From a virus, in the IMG/VR virus record IMGVR_UViG_3300045049_000262, positions 1 through 49,155 of that record: a stretch of 49,155 nt of DNA; one strand, written 5' to 3'. Position 1 is the first letter of the stretch. Each line of letters begins with the position of its first letter. This document shows positions 215-29,083 of the stretch, piece after piece. The notes under the pieces were generated by a model that worked only from the letters and a program-made list of their open reading frames with translations, was not told the origin of the DNA and searched no databases. The position numbers and the translations under genes were made by a program.

Positions 215-255
215 AGGAGGCAAACTCGTGTAAGCTTACGGAAAATTCGCTTACG
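215..255 (+). promoter_or_regulatory. Integrase upstream region with CTTACG repeats and an SD-GTG-TAA start-stop
   Basis: A strong AGGAGG (about 215-220) is followed by GTG-TAA at 228-233, a start codon directly followed by a stop. Two CTTACG direct repeats (235-240, 250-255) and an inverted pair GTAAGC/GCTTAC (230-235, 249-254) sit 13-40 bases before the integrase start. They could be operator or arm-type recombinase sites. No convincing -35/-10 pair was seen. Function is inferred from position only. Confidence 0.35.
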
Positions 256-267
256 TGAGTTTCGGGG

Positions 268-1398
268 ATGGCGACAAAGCGCAGGCGCGGGGATAGCTGG
301 CACTACGTTGTAAAGCGAGCAGGACTTCTACCAAAGCCGATCTACCTTACCTTCGACGATGAGGCCGAAGGTGATGAATACGTGCGCCGCGTGGAAGCGT
401 TGCTCGATCGCGGCGTTGTGCCGGACGACTTCAACGAAAAGCGTGAAGTGCAGCGCAGCCTGCGCGAGCACATTTCACGCTACCTGGGCGCCCAGCACGT
501 AGCAAAGGACGATAGCAATCTCCTGGGCATTGTTGCCCAGCGCCTGCCGCGGGATCTGCAGCTTTCGGCGCTGACGTTTAGCTGGGCCACGGGTTGGGTA
601 TCTTCGCTTAAGCGTGAGCAGAACCTTGCCCCGTCGACACTACGAAAACATGTCGGTGCGCTGGCGCGCTGTCTCGACTGGCTTGCTGGCCATGGCGACA
701 TTCCCTTCAATCCACTTCGCTCGCTGCCAAAGGGATACGCCGTCTACACGCCGGCGGATATTGCGGCAGCGAAGGCGGTCGAAGGAGTCGCAAAAGTCGA
801 CACTGAACGTGATCGCCGGCTCGAACCTGGCGAGCCCAGCGAGGAAGAGCGTATACGAGCGGTGCTCGCCGGCGCGAAGCATCCTGATCGGCAACGAGCC
901 CTCGAGCTCAAGTTCGCAGACAAATTGCTGCTGCTGTTCGAGATGGCGTTGGAATCAGCGATGCGCATGCGCGAGATGTATACGCTTTCGATCGATCAGG
1001 TCGACCTGAAGCGTAAAACCATCTTCCTGGACTCGACGAAGAACGGCGACAAGCGTCAGGTGCCGATCACATCCGTGCTGGCGGCGGCGCTCGGTCCGCA
1101 CGTGCGCGGGAGAAAGCCAAGCGAGCTGCTGTTCCCCTGGTGGGATGGCGATTTGTCCGAAAAGTCCCTCAGGCGCACCACATCGAAGTTATCGCGCCAA
1201 TTCACCCGCATCTTCGAAACGGCCGGTTGCGAGGATCTGAATTTCCACGACCTGCGCCATGAAGCAACCTCGCGGCTCTACGAGCGAACTAACCTCAGCG
1301 ACATGGAAATAGCCAAAATCACGGGACACCGGACGTTGGCCATGCTGAAGCGTTATGCGAACCTTCGCGGCTCAGACCTCGCCACTCGACTTTGGTGA
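268..1398 (+). CDS. int: Tyrosine-type site-specific integrase
   Basis: This 376-aa phage integrase catalyses recombination between attP and the tRNA-Cys attB. The C-terminal catalytic domain (about 190-376) shows the tyrosine recombinase residues: R233 (in SAMRMREM), K258 (TKNG), H327 and R330 (HDLRHEA), H354 (GHRTL) and nucleophile Y363 (KRYANLR). The N-terminal and middle parts (about 20-150) would hold the arm- and core-binding regions. Reading starts at ATG 268, the first in-frame start after an upstream TGA. The bases before it give no good Shine-Dalgarno, so translation may be weak. It reads away from attL and overlaps the convergent excisionase-like gene by 27 bp. Assignment is firm. 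Confidence 0.97.
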   Translation: MATKRRRGDSWHYVVKRAGLLPKPIYLTFDDEAEGDEYVRRVEALLDRGVVPDDFNEKREVQRSLREHISRYLGAQHVAKDDSNLLGIVAQRLPRDLQLSALTFSWATGWVSSLKREQNLAPSTLRKHVGALARCLDWLAGHGDIPFNPLRSLPKGYAVYTPADIAAAKAVEGVAKVDTERDRRLEPGEPSEEERIRAVLAGAKHPDRQRALELKFADKLLLLFEMALESAMRMREMYTLSIDQVDLKRKTIFLDSTKNGDKRQVPITSVLAAALGPHVRGRKPSELLFPWWDGDLSEKSLRRTTSKLSRQFTRIFETAGCEDLNFHDLRHEATSRLYERTNLSDMEIAKITGHRTLAMLKRYANLRGSDLATRLW

Positions 1399-9273: not shown

Positions 9274-9866
9274 TAGCGCGTCCTCCCATTGTTCTGGGCA
9301 CGCTGCTGGCGCCTGCGCTCTTGGAACTCAGGCCACGGCACCTTGTGGAGCCCGTCGATCAGGTAGCCCCAGAGCTGGCGCTTCGGCCCGGTGATCTGCA
9401 ACAGCCAGGCGTCATTGCCGTTCGGCAGGGTGAAGAAGTGGTAGTCCCACGCCTTGCGGCGGAACACGGCGCCGGCGGCATACAGGTGCCCGTGGTCCGT
9501 GTCATAGGCCACCGGATCCAGCCCGTGGTACCGGTTCACCACCTCGATGTGGTCACGCCACCGATCCAGCTCGCGCGGCACGATCTCGCAGACGGCGCCG
9601 CGCAGGACGACGGTGAGGGAATGGCAGGCCTCATCGTGGAAGATGGGCTCTTCGTTGCTCACCTGCTGGACGACACGCACCGCAAACCACGGGTGGATTT
9701 CGCCGTCGCCATTCGGGTGCTTGCTGCCGATACGGAACAGCCAGTACCGGTGCAGGAGCGGCTTGCCGTCGTCGTGGAGCATATGCTCGTGCGGTGTCCG
9801 CAACGCCCGGTTGATGCACCAGGTGGCGAACCCTTCGAACATCTTGGCTTTCAGCTTTGAGAACAT
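9273..9866 (-). CDS. Cupin-like phage protein
   Basis: This 197-aa protein starts MFSKLKAKMFEGFATW. Its second half has a cupin-type beta-barrel signature: FHDEACHSLTVVLRGAVCEIV, then GAVFRRKAWDYHFFTL and a WLLQITGPKRQLWGYLI end. The histidines in HDEACH and the later H are where a cupin would bind metal. Related phage proteins are annotated only as cupin-fold hypothetical. The start at ATG 9866 is chosen because the upstream extension to 10025 overlaps another gene and looks out of frame. Confidence 0.75.
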   Translation of the reverse strand: MFSKLKAKMFEGFATWCINRALRTPHEHMLHDDGKPLLHRYWLFRIGSKHPNGDGEIHPWFAVRVVQQVSNEEPIFHDEACHSLTVVLRGAVCEIVPRELDRWRDHIEVVNRYHGLDPVAYDTDHGHLYAAGAVFRRKAWDYHFFTLPNGNDAWLLQITGPKRQLWGYLIDGLHKVPWPEFQERRRQQRAQNNGRTR

Positions 9867-26163: not shown

Positions 26164-26292
26164 GGTCGTGGCGAGGCGCGGCCCCCGGGGCGTCGTGGGT
26201 CCTTCCACGACCCTGGCGCCGCACGGGACATTCGAGCCGTGATGTCACACCAGCTATGAGTCTGAAAAGTTGTCCGCAGGGTTGTCCGCACC
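26164..26292 (+). other. Candidate cos region upstream of terminase
   Basis: The 129-bp gap between the preceding gene and the small terminase gene contains GCGCGGCCCCCGGGGCG, very GC-rich with a CCCCGGGG palindrome core. It is followed by a hairpin GTCGTGG/CCACGAC (26192-26211) that repeats an earlier GGTCGTGG (26164-26171). Two TGTCCGCA boxes lie just before the TerS start. In lambda-like phages cos lies directly before the nu1 gene, so this is the probable cleavage region. The exact nick sites cannot be read from sequence. Confidence 0.55.
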
Positions 26293-26556
26293 ATGACTGA
26301 GCGACTGGCGGTTCGAGAGTTTGCTCGGCGCGAGGGTTGCAACGAAAAGCAAGTTCGCCGCGCCGTCGAGAAAGGCCTGCTGCGCAAGGATTCCGACGGC
26401 CTGATCAGTGCAGACCAGCTCGGCAATGGTTGGCGGAAAACCAACCGGCGTGGCCGTGATGCGGCTGCGGCCGCAGTTGCGGACAAAATTGCGGACATTG
26501 CGGACAAGCCGCAGCAGAATGTCCGCAAGCCGAATGTCCGCAGCGAAATGTCCGCA
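26271..26556. repeat. Array of eight TGTCCGCA boxes (candidate terminase-binding array)
   Basis: TGTCCGCA occurs on the plus strand at 26271, 26283, 26520, 26535 and 26549, and on the minus strand (as TGCGGACA) at 26478, 26490 and 26499. All eight are exact 8-mers, most within 9-15 bp of the next, grouped 2+3+3. Six lie inside the small terminase gene and two just before it. Lambda's cosB has gpNu1-binding R sites in the same place. Confidence 0.85.
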
Positions 26557-26910
26557 CGCAGCGATGAAAGTGCGGCAGAGGCTGCCGAACGGATCGCCTT
26601 GACCGCCGCACCCTTCGAAAGGGTTGAGGCAGAGCGGATCAAGGAAAACTATCTCGCGCTCCTGAAGAAGCTGGAGTTCGAACAAAAGGAAGGGTCGCTT
26701 GTTGAGTTGGAAGTTGCCGAGCGCGTGCTGTTCGAAGCGGCGCGCGCCCAGCGCGATGTATGGCTCAACTGGCCGTCACGAGTTGGCCCGCTTATCGCAG
26801 CAGACCTTGGGCTTGCGGCGGATCTGGTTACGCAAGTTCTGACGGAGCATGTCCACAAGCAGATCGCTCAGATCGGCGAACCAACCGCTGATTTCGCAGA
26901 CGTCGAGTAA
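26293..26910 (+). CDS. Terminase small subunit
   Basis: In this 205-aa protein the N-terminal ~45 residues form a winged-helix DNA-binding unit like lambda gpNu1 (RLAVREFARREGCNEKQVRRAVEKGLL, then SADQLGNGW). A hydrophilic, Ala-rich linker encoded by the TGTCCGCA-box DNA follows (about 55-95), then a coiled-coil and helical C-terminus (ERIKENYLALLKKLEFEQKEG, VLFEAARAQRDVWLNWPSRV) for oligomerisation and TerL binding. It directs packaging start at cos. Start ATG 26293; overlaps TerL by 62 bp. Confidence 0.9.
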   Translation: MTERLAVREFARREGCNEKQVRRAVEKGLLRKDSDGLISADQLGNGWRKTNRRGRDAAAAAVADKIADIADKPQQNVRKPNVRSEMSARSDESAAEAAERIALTAAPFERVEAERIKENYLALLKKLEFEQKEGSLVELEVAERVLFEAARAQRDVWLNWPSRVGPLIAADLGLAADLVTQVLTEHVHKQIAQIGEPTADFADVE

Positions 26911-29083
26911 GGAAGCTCGCCTATATTTGGCCTGGCGTAGAGGTTGGTGCCCGGACAAGGCCGCTGCGCCTGCGCCGATCGTGGAATCGCCGAAGGCGAC
27001 CAGATTGCATTCGGCATGGCGGCGTGGCTGGACCCCGCCGCCACGCATCAGCGTGCCGCAGTGGGCCGACACATATCGGCAGCTGGCTGAAGCTGGCGGC
27101 TCAAACGGGAAACGTCAGACCTCTGTTGGTCGGTGGGAAACGGCAACCGTTGAAATCGCACGTGGCCCGATGCTTGCCGTCACCGAGCCGGGCGTGCACA
27201 TCATCACCGTCAAGGTGAGCACGCAGTTGCTGAAGACGTCTCTTCTGGAAAACGTCTTCGGGTTCAAGGCGCACCTTGACCCCGGGCCGATGCTGCTGCT
27301 TCAGCCAAAGGACGACGCAGCGGAGCAGTTCAGCAAAGAGCGCATAGCGCCGATGATTCGCGCGACGCCGGTGTTGCGGAAGTTGGTCGGCGGCGGCAAG
27401 ACCCGCAATTCCGACGAGACGCTGCTTTACAAGTCGTTTCCGGGCGGATTTCTCGCGCTGGCAGGTGCCGGCAGTCCGGACAACCTGGCACGACGGCCCA
27501 TCCAAACATTGCTGCTGGATGAGATCAATAAATACCCCATCACCAAGGAAGGTGATCCGATCATGATCGCCGAGGAGCGAACCGCGAAATACGGTGCGAC
27601 CTGGCTGTCCGTACGTGCCTGTACGCCCACGGTCGAAGACGAGTGCAGGATCACTCAGAGCTTCGAAGAATCAGATCAGCGTCAGGCGTCCGTCGAATGC
27701 CCGCATTGTGCGCATCGGCAGTTCCTGGACTTTTTCAAGCACGTCCATTGGGAGAAAGACGGCAACCGTCATTTTCCAAAGACCGCTGCGCTGTTCTGCG
27801 AATCCTGTGGCGCTATGTGGTCGGAAGGTGAACGCCTTCGCGCGCTCAAGACGATACGGTGGCACCAAACGCGGCCGTTTCACTGCTGTAATGAACGCCA
27901 TGTACCCATCGAACGGTACGAGGCTGCATGGAAACTTGCTGATGCGAGCGCCGTCGACGCCATATGGACATGGTGGGCCAGTGATCGCTATGCGGTATAT
28001 CTGGCCAGGTGTCCAACGTGTGGCGCGCATCCGCTCGATCGCGAGCATGCCGGGTTTACAGCGTCAAAGCTGTATAGCCCATGGTCGAAAGACAAGCCTT
28101 CGGACATCGCGGCGAAGTGGATTGCTGCCAAGGATGACGAAGACAAGAAGCAGCCGTTCTATAACACACAGTTGGCGCTGGCGTACAAGCGACACTCTGC
28201 GAGAGATGTGCCGCTTGAACAGCTCGTATCCCGTTGCGAGGTGTGGTCTGCGGAAGTCCCGGATGGTGTAGCCGTCCTGACAGCAGGCATTGATACGCAG
28301 GATTACCGCGTTGAAATCGAGGTCATTGGCTGGGGCGCCAATGAAGAGTCCTGGTCGATAGAACATCACGTGATCGATGGCGAATTCTCCGAACCTTCCA
28401 CCCAGAAGGCGTTGGATGAATACCTCAAGCGGACATGGTGTCGTGCGGACGGACGGCGATTTGAAATCCTGGCGGCTTGCCACGATTCGGGCGGCCATCA
28501 TTCGGAAGCCGTCTATGCGTTTTGCAAGGATCGCATTGGGCGCCGAATCTGGGCAGTGAAGGGTGAGTCGGCCAGGAACGGACAACGCAATCCGGTATGG
28601 CCGACCAAAAAGCCTTCAAGGCGTAGCAAGGCTTCTTACAGGCCGATCATCATCGGCGTGAATGCCGCGAAAGACACCATTTCAACGCGCCTGGCGAAGG
28701 TTCCTGGTCCTGATGGGAAGGTGAGCGGCCCGGGCGCCATGCATTATCCGGTTGACAGGGACATCAACTACTTTGCCCAGATGACGGCGGAGCGGTTGGT
28801 GCTGAAAACAGTTGGCGGCCGGCGGTTCCGCGTATGGGAGCAGCGTCCCGGAAGGGCAAATGAAGCGCTCGACTGCCGTGTTTATGGCTATGCCGCGCTG
28901 TGTGGACTCATCCATTTCGGGCTGAAGCTCAATAAGCGCGCAGCCGACGTGGCCGCGTCGATTGGGCCGCCTCTGCCATTGCCATTAGAACCGGACGGCC
29001 AGCCTACCGCTGACGCAAACAAGGTTGGTCCGCTCGTAAAGGGCGATCAGAAACCTAAAACATTGGCCAGCAAGCTGGCTTAG
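26849..29083 (+). CDS. Terminase large subunit, lambda gpA family
   Basis: This 744-aa protein is the packaging ATPase and nuclease. The GpA pattern is clear: PPRISVPQWADTYRQL, the nucleotide-binding region VKVSTQLLKTSLLENVFG (a deviant Walker A, LLK in place of GK), PKDDAAEQFSKERIAPMI, and the Walker B-like TLLLDEINKYP. Zinc-type pairs CPHC, CESC and CPTC follow, then an acidic nuclease half (GIDTQDYRVEIEVIGWG, DSGGHHSEAVYAFC). Residues 22-33 and 50-61 are an internal duplication of a L-x-x-AWRRGW element. It starts at ATG 26849, inside the TerS gene. Confidence 0.94.
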   Translation: MSTSRSLRSANQPLISQTSSKEARLYLAWRRGWCPDKAAAPAPIVESPKATRLHSAWRRGWTPPPRISVPQWADTYRQLAEAGGSNGKRQTSVGRWETATVEIARGPMLAVTEPGVHIITVKVSTQLLKTSLLENVFGFKAHLDPGPMLLLQPKDDAAEQFSKERIAPMIRATPVLRKLVGGGKTRNSDETLLYKSFPGGFLALAGAGSPDNLARRPIQTLLLDEINKYPITKEGDPIMIAEERTAKYGATWLSVRACTPTVEDECRITQSFEESDQRQASVECPHCAHRQFLDFFKHVHWEKDGNRHFPKTAALFCESCGAMWSEGERLRALKTIRWHQTRPFHCCNERHVPIERYEAAWKLADASAVDAIWTWWASDRYAVYLARCPTCGAHPLDREHAGFTASKLYSPWSKDKPSDIAAKWIAAKDDEDKKQPFYNTQLALAYKRHSARDVPLEQLVSRCEVWSAEVPDGVAVLTAGIDTQDYRVEIEVIGWGANEESWSIEHHVIDGEFSEPSTQKALDEYLKRTWCRADGRRFEILAACHDSGGHHSEAVYAFCKDRIGRRIWAVKGESARNGQRNPVWPTKKPSRRSKASYRPIIIGVNAAKDTISTRLAKVPGPDGKVSGPGAMHYPVDRDINYFAQMTAERLVLKTVGGRRFRVWEQRPGRANEALDCRVYGYAALCGLIHFGLKLNKRAADVAASIGPPLPLPLEPDGQPTADANKVGPLVKGDQKPKTLASKLA

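Follow-up and report, generated by a model that had tools for sequence, protein, structure and literature searches.

The window analyzed here is a whole stretch of 49,155 bp (IMG/VR record IMGVR_UViG_3300045049_000262). It represents a temperate phage: an integrase lies near a tRNA-Cys gene, the head module is lambda-type, and the tail genes are of the baseplate type. The octamer TGTCCGCA recurs immediately before and within its small terminase gene, terS. The features of the locus, in order, are as follows.

26197 to 26203, plus strand: cosQ-like heptamer GGGTCCT, 30 bp before the cosN homolog
26227 to 26238, plus strand: cosN homolog with the predicted 12-nt cohesive end GACATTCGAGCC, at a position homologous to the mapped end of phage BZS1
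26271 to 26278, plus strand: box 1, TGTCCGCA, left pair, R3-like, bp 45 from cosN
26283 to 26290, plus strand: box 2, TGTCCGCA, left pair, bp 57, ending 2 bp before the terS ATG
26293 to 26910, plus strand: terS, small terminase of 205 aa, phrog_57, the family shared with lambda gpNu1
26293 to 26433, plus strand: wHTH DNA-binding domain of TerS, recognition helix at residues 18 to 26, candidate specificity residue 19 (K)
26478 to 26485, minus strand: box 3, TGTCCGCA, inverted, R2-like, bp 252, in linker codons
26490 to 26497, minus strand: box 4, TGTCCGCA, inverted
26499 to 26506, minus strand: box 5, TGTCCGCA, inverted
26520 to 26527, plus strand: box 6, TGTCCGCA, R1-like, bp 294
26535 to 26542, plus strand: box 7, TGTCCGCA, exact octamer
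26549 to 26556, plus strand: box 8, TGTCCGCA, in a frame different from that of boxes 6 and 7
26849 to 29083, plus strand: terL, gpA-type large terminase with Pfam GpA_ATPase and GpA_nuclease (ATPase and nuclease domains), phrog_15

With the listed terL start at 26849, the last ~60 bp of terS (26849 to 26910) are shared with terL. Box 2 takes the place of the terS ribosome-binding site, and no clear Shine-Dalgarno sequence was seen there.

Ten copies of TGTCCGCA were found across the window, 8 of them within 26271 to 26556, while 2.9 would be expected by chance window-wide; the remaining copies lie at 9795 and 35388. One-mismatch neighbors of the octamer were not enriched (64 found versus 61 expected), and eight copies of any 7-mer appeared in none of 60 dinucleotide shuffles of the region from −120 to +300 around the terS start codon. 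Boxes 1 and 2 precede the terS ATG (26293), and boxes 3 to 8 lie within terS. Counted from cosN, the boxes fall at bp 45 and 57 (plus), 252 to 273 (minus), and 294 to 323 (plus), so that their strand order is ++ / −−− / +++. An initial annotation, made from sequence alone, had reported eight exact octamers at these coordinates and on these strands, six of them in the coding region, and had called eight copies in 286 bp far above chance. All of this held, and its proviso that equal frequency of the 8-mer elsewhere would refute the idea did not come into play, with only two other copies present. It had described a single change of orientation, which was incorrect: the orientation switches twice.

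The window TerS matched phrog_57 at 8e-17 (lambda Nu1, 1e-76), and a direct profile link between the two proteins was weak and restricted to the wHTH. AlphaFold2, run with a 62-row alignment, predicted a confident wHTH (residues ~1 to 45, with a pLDDT of 93 to 96 over residues 1 to 40), a low-confidence linker (~51 to 90), and a confident helical C-terminal domain. Foldseek searches with TerS gave no direct match to a gpNu1 structure and only weak MerR/excisionase-like wHTH hits, none with E <0.001. Boxes 3 to 8 correspond to codons ~62 to 88 of terS, that is, to the low-confidence linker.

We then asked how often the linker would carry boxes if only its peptide were kept. Among 20,000 synonymous recodings, 15,985 had no box and the maximum was 4, compared with the 6 observed. 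Boxes 6 and 7 translate as NVR and box 8 translates as MSA; the plus boxes thus occupy two reading frames because the last spacing is 14 bp. Intragenic plus-strand boxes of relatives occur in two or three frames. The suggestion in the initial annotation that the boxes force a repetitive peptide is therefore wrong or at least incomplete. Because recoding never exceeded four boxes and the reading frames are mixed, selection most likely acts on the DNA.

The closest mapped reference is the Serratia phage vB_SspM_BZS1 (MT843275), for which PhageTerm predicted a 12-nt 5′ cohesive end, GCATTGCGCGCC; a comparison of the virion ends with the joined site in the prophage confirmed it (PMC7556043). The BZS1 record begins at this cohesive end, with terS at bp 75, GGTAACA boxes at bp 48, 55, and 67 (plus strand, before terS), and six more boxes in terS. 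BZS1 therefore combines a mapped cosL with boxes before and inside terS, a layout like that of the window, but it differs in its box sequence (GGTAACA) and in having a TerS C-terminus of another type. The passages found in PMC7556043 do not describe the boxes.

In the window, GACATTCGAGCC lies 24 bp before CAGCTA, as in BZS1, the shared downstream element being [CT]AGCTA. Its identity as cosN rests on position, because the sequence departs from the GCATTGCGCGCC consensus. We infer that 26227 to 26238 is cosN; the exact nick positions are likewise inferred, from spacing, since cohesive ends have been mapped only in BZS1. Upstream lies the heptamer GGGTCCT, which we take to be lambda cosQ. The cosQ site has been described as a highly conserved 7-bp site, although its sequence was not printed there (PMC4669245). 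The distance from GGGTCCT to cosN is 30 bp in the window, 30 bp in lambda (48473, before bp 1), and 31 bp in BZS1, and it is 29 to 32 bp in 59 of 62 related loci. The layout recurs in relatives whose box sequences are unrelated, the first box lying at bp 45 to 48 from cosN in 59 of the 66 loci with a recognizable cosN, and the cosN motif (CGGGCATTGCGCGCCGCG) is kept upstream of terS in most relatives. This spacing of cosQ, cosN, and boxes is a direct observation.

In six relatives (L040, L049, L116, L124, L163, and L203), the CATTGCGCGCC type upstream of terS is replaced in the same place by another conserved cosN-like element, GGGCGGGAGCGAAGACTCGCG and its variants, raising the possibility that cosN, too, exists in several types. 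A separate observation concerns the Pseudomonas aeruginosa phages Haddon (L093, 1 to 110) and Turba (L094, 1080 to 1230), both with GTTAAC boxes upstream of terS. The linear Haddon record opens with an inverted copy of a sequence that is contiguous in Turba, which might reflect fold-back at a physical end ~85 to 100 bp before terS.

The locus resembles lambda cos in its gpA-type TerL, its TerS from the PHROG of gpNu1 (phrog_57), the GGGTCCT 30 bp before cosN, the first R site ~50 bp from cosN (R3 at bp 50; window, 45), and the inverted middle R. Lambda specificity is also set by the wHTH recognition helix (PMC9026076, PMC4669245). When applied to lambda, our k-mer enumerator returned CGTTTCC at 53 (+), 114 (−), and 155 (+), matching the reported order and orientation of R3, R2, and R1 (PMC9026076). 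There are also differences. Lambda has three R sites, whereas the window has eight boxes; lambda terS starts at bp 191, after cosB, whereas terS of the window starts at bp 67, inside cosB, with six boxes in codons; and the box and cosN sequences are not the same. In lambda an IHF site lies between R3 and R2, but no IHF-like site (WATCAANNNNTTR, ≤1 mismatch) was found between boxes 2 and 3 of the window (26291 to 26477), although the host IHF consensus is unknown. Phage N15 is similar in that its terS begins close to cosN, at bp 89 (PMC9026076), but it has only one essential R site and lacks an array; the k-mer enumerator found none. The IHF site is absent from N15, so it is not strictly defining for a lambda-type cos.

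To place the array among its relatives, we scanned IMG/VR with TerS alignments and obtained 96 TerS clusters at <90% identity. Arrays were found in about three quarters: in 73 of the 96 clusters the observed repeat count was unmatched by any of 60 shuffles, although one of these (L151) is of low complexity. About a quarter showed no clear array by this k-mer/shuffle method, and no array was found in a neighboring TerS-like wHTH family. About ten box sequence types were present, comprising TGTCCGCA, [TG]GTTCGCA, TGTTTGCA, GGTAACA, GGTTTCA, TGTCCCA, GGTTGAC, GGTTAAC, and a few singletons.

The layout itself is conserved and takes two forms. In the split class, which includes the window, between one and three plus boxes are found at the start codon or immediately ahead of it, with the remainder in linker codons. 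In the upstream class, every box precedes terS in lambda-like order and the linker carries none; L059, for example, has ++ at −151/−144, −− at −75/−63, and ++++ at −46 to −7, positions similar to those of the lambda sites. Whether the array lies inside or outside terS is not tied to box type, because GGTAACA occurs in both anatomies with similar wHTHs. The Acetobacter phage phiAP1 (L314, 1272 to 1482) has boxes of the type GGTTGCA, plus before terS and both inverted and plus within it, and the recognition helix SRPAIKKNI.

Box type followed the recognition helix of TerS. Helices DEKQVRR or SD[KR]LVRR paired with TGTCCGCA, SD[TM]LVR[RK] with GTTCGCA, SRKTVT.WK with GGTAACA, SHTAV.KWQ with GGTTTCA, and DRKT[IV].RW with TGTCCCA. 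On trees of 83 sequences, box type required 10 changes on the wHTH tree (minimum, 9), 21 on the C-terminal tree, and 46 with shuffled labels. Part of the agreement with the wHTH tree is the covariation itself, because that tree includes the recognition helix. Box type thus tracks the TerS wHTH and not the C-terminus.

Within the clade of the window, and counting only loci with at least 4 boxes, one base of the box follows residue 19: it is C with K/R and T with T/M. All 37 loci with K or R at this residue had GTCCGCA, and all 26 with T or M had GTT[C/T]GCA. One locus with S had GTGCGCA, and one with A had GTCCGCA, the sole exception. The single GTTTGCA lineage has H rather than R at residue 22, and this R22H/TGTTTGCA pairing rests on one lineage, because a held-out DNA-pattern search returned only the known locus. 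Residue 19 has switched about five times independently, as resolved among related loci; four of the five pairs agree and none oppose (sign test, P = 0.125). A held-out search with a wHTH query in 399 genomes of one bacterial order recovered only the neighboring family (YARHRG...), without arrays. A DNA search for paired TGTCCGCA hit mainly unrelated arrays that lie in other genes; six TerS loci were also recovered, all with K at position 19, and most were already in the set. The residue-19 rule is best regarded as a strong lead rather than a proven code. It predicts that TerS of the T19 relatives would be specific for TGTTCGCA and TerS of the window for TGTCCGCA.

Arrays of TGTCCGCA with ~11-bp spacing were also seen in unrelated phage contigs (L467, 7525 to 7893; also L399, L418, L453, and L466). 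They flank a domain of a replication-like gene (DUF1376-like, judged by eye) on either side and encode a repeated peptide, SAKCPQNVRIDADK. Here, too, a gene for a DNA-binding protein may contain its own binding sites, perhaps origin iterons.

Pairs of related loci revealed how box types are exchanged. L281 and L055 are 96% identical upstream to cosN, 56% across the cassette of boxes plus wHTH, 84% in the C-terminus, and 91% at the start of terL. The corresponding values are 100%, 60%, 74%, and 84% for L227 and L027 and 73%, 56%, 94%, and 87% for L067 and L046. The cassette identities (56 to 60%) are probably near the level of unrelated DNA for the global alignment used, a background that was not separately measured. 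Since near-identical DNA on one or both flanks encloses differing boxes and wHTHs, the boxes and their presumed reader move together. Boxes plus wHTH are thus exchanged between phages as a unit.

Taken together, these results make it very likely that TerS binds the eight octamers as the R-type sites of the cosB of this phage. The initial annotation had proposed an expanded cosB-type packaging array by comparison with the lambda R sites. That proposal is supported by the cosQ-cosN-cosB spacing, the mapped BZS1 ends, the arrays in relatives, and the tracking of box type with the wHTH; the lambda comparison itself held for site order, the inverted middle site, the ~50 bp from cosN, and the greater number of sites (8 versus 3). 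TerS binding remains inferred, as there are no binding or packaging data for this phage or its box type.

From the spacing and order shared with lambda, the upstream class resembles a lambda cosB in which every R site has been multiplied; the split class resembles this site after a shift of the terS start into it. In the window, R3 would have become two boxes, R2 three, and R1 three; the terS start would lie inside cosB, with wHTH codons filling the spacer between the R3-like and R2-like sites and the R2- and R1-like boxes in linker codons. TerS may dock on the left pair, ~45 bp from cosN, and on the inverted and direct clusters ~190 bp further on. The boxes are multiple and opposed, which suggests that several TerS units could link the left pair to the inverted cluster by folding or bridging the intervening DNA, although such a looped complex is inferred. 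With no IHF-like site found at ≤1 mismatch and a spacer of ~190 bp, the complex could involve a longer loop or a different bending factor. By analogy with lambda, docking of TerS on cosB would anchor TerL at cosN, leading to a staggered cut and the start of packaging.

The alternative that survives best, though we consider it very unlikely, is an operator array serving TerS, or some other regulator with a wHTH, in the transcriptional or translational control of terS and the late operon. In its favor, the left pair of boxes directly precedes the terS start, box 2 sits where a ribosome-binding site would be, and the TerS wHTH weakly resembles MerR/excisionase-type regulators. However, the left pair of the upstream class keeps its 45 to 48 bp from cosN but lies ~140 to 190 bp from the start codon, so box position follows cosN and not the gene start, and box order and orientation agree with lambda cosB. 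Given the place of box 2, TerS bound there might also influence its own expression, and autoregulation could be an additional effect of the boxes.

A second alternative, in which a repetitive linker peptide gave rise to the boxes incidentally, through protein-level selection or slippage duplication, is all but excluded. The linker is rich in Ala, Asp, Lys, and Arg, and the intragenic boxes do lie in its low-confidence codons. Nevertheless, two boxes are noncoding, both orientations and several frames are represented, synonymous recoding never reached six, and upstream-class relatives have the same boxes before terS and none in the linker; we rejected a peptide-level repeat on the recoding, the frames, and the upstream class. 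A headful pac like that of P1, a 161-bp site with seven hexamer repeats in two groups inside the small-terminase gene pacA (PMC10028697), is similar in anatomy but can be virtually ruled out and serves as an analogy only, because P1 packages by headful from methylation-sensitive GATC hexamers, whereas GATC is absent from TGTCCGCA and this locus combines a gpA-type TerL with cosQ and cosN spaced as in lambda, and its relative BZS1 has mapped 12-nt cohesive ends (PMC7556043).

A cosB array remains the preferred reading. The open-access literature covers the cosB genetics of lambda, 21, and N15 and the intragenic pac of P1, but nothing we found in it describes these arrays, their diversification, or any cosB array inside a gene; subscription papers were mostly outside the scope of the search, so this absence is no proof. 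It seems likely that the kind of site is known, lambda cosB, and that what is new is its multiplied, terS-intragenic, and diversified box arrays. A bolder reading, which we favor by a narrow margin, is that packaging specificity in a large group of lambda-type phages resides in a self-contained cassette (cosB boxes with the TerS wHTH, in many cases with the boxes in linker codons). There would be ~10 box types, residues of the recognition helix would specify box bases by a readable rule, and the cassette would be swapped by recombination in the conserved cosN and TerS C-terminus, giving mutually incompatible packaging signals.

A 2022 review called DNA recognition by TerS unclear and controversial (PMC9611059), and the genetics of TerS specificity has been limited to a few lambda relatives (PMC4669245). 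Natural variation now offers ~10 box types, a candidate specificity residue, wHTH/C-terminus recombinants, and intragenic versus upstream versions of a single site. TerS specificity would be predictable from sequence and testable with short oligonucleotides. The arrays also provide a simple way to locate cos sites in prophages, and box types could predict which phages and satellites package each other's DNA. This phage would thus mark its DNA for packaging with eight short copies of one sequence, six of them in the gene for the protein that probably reads them.
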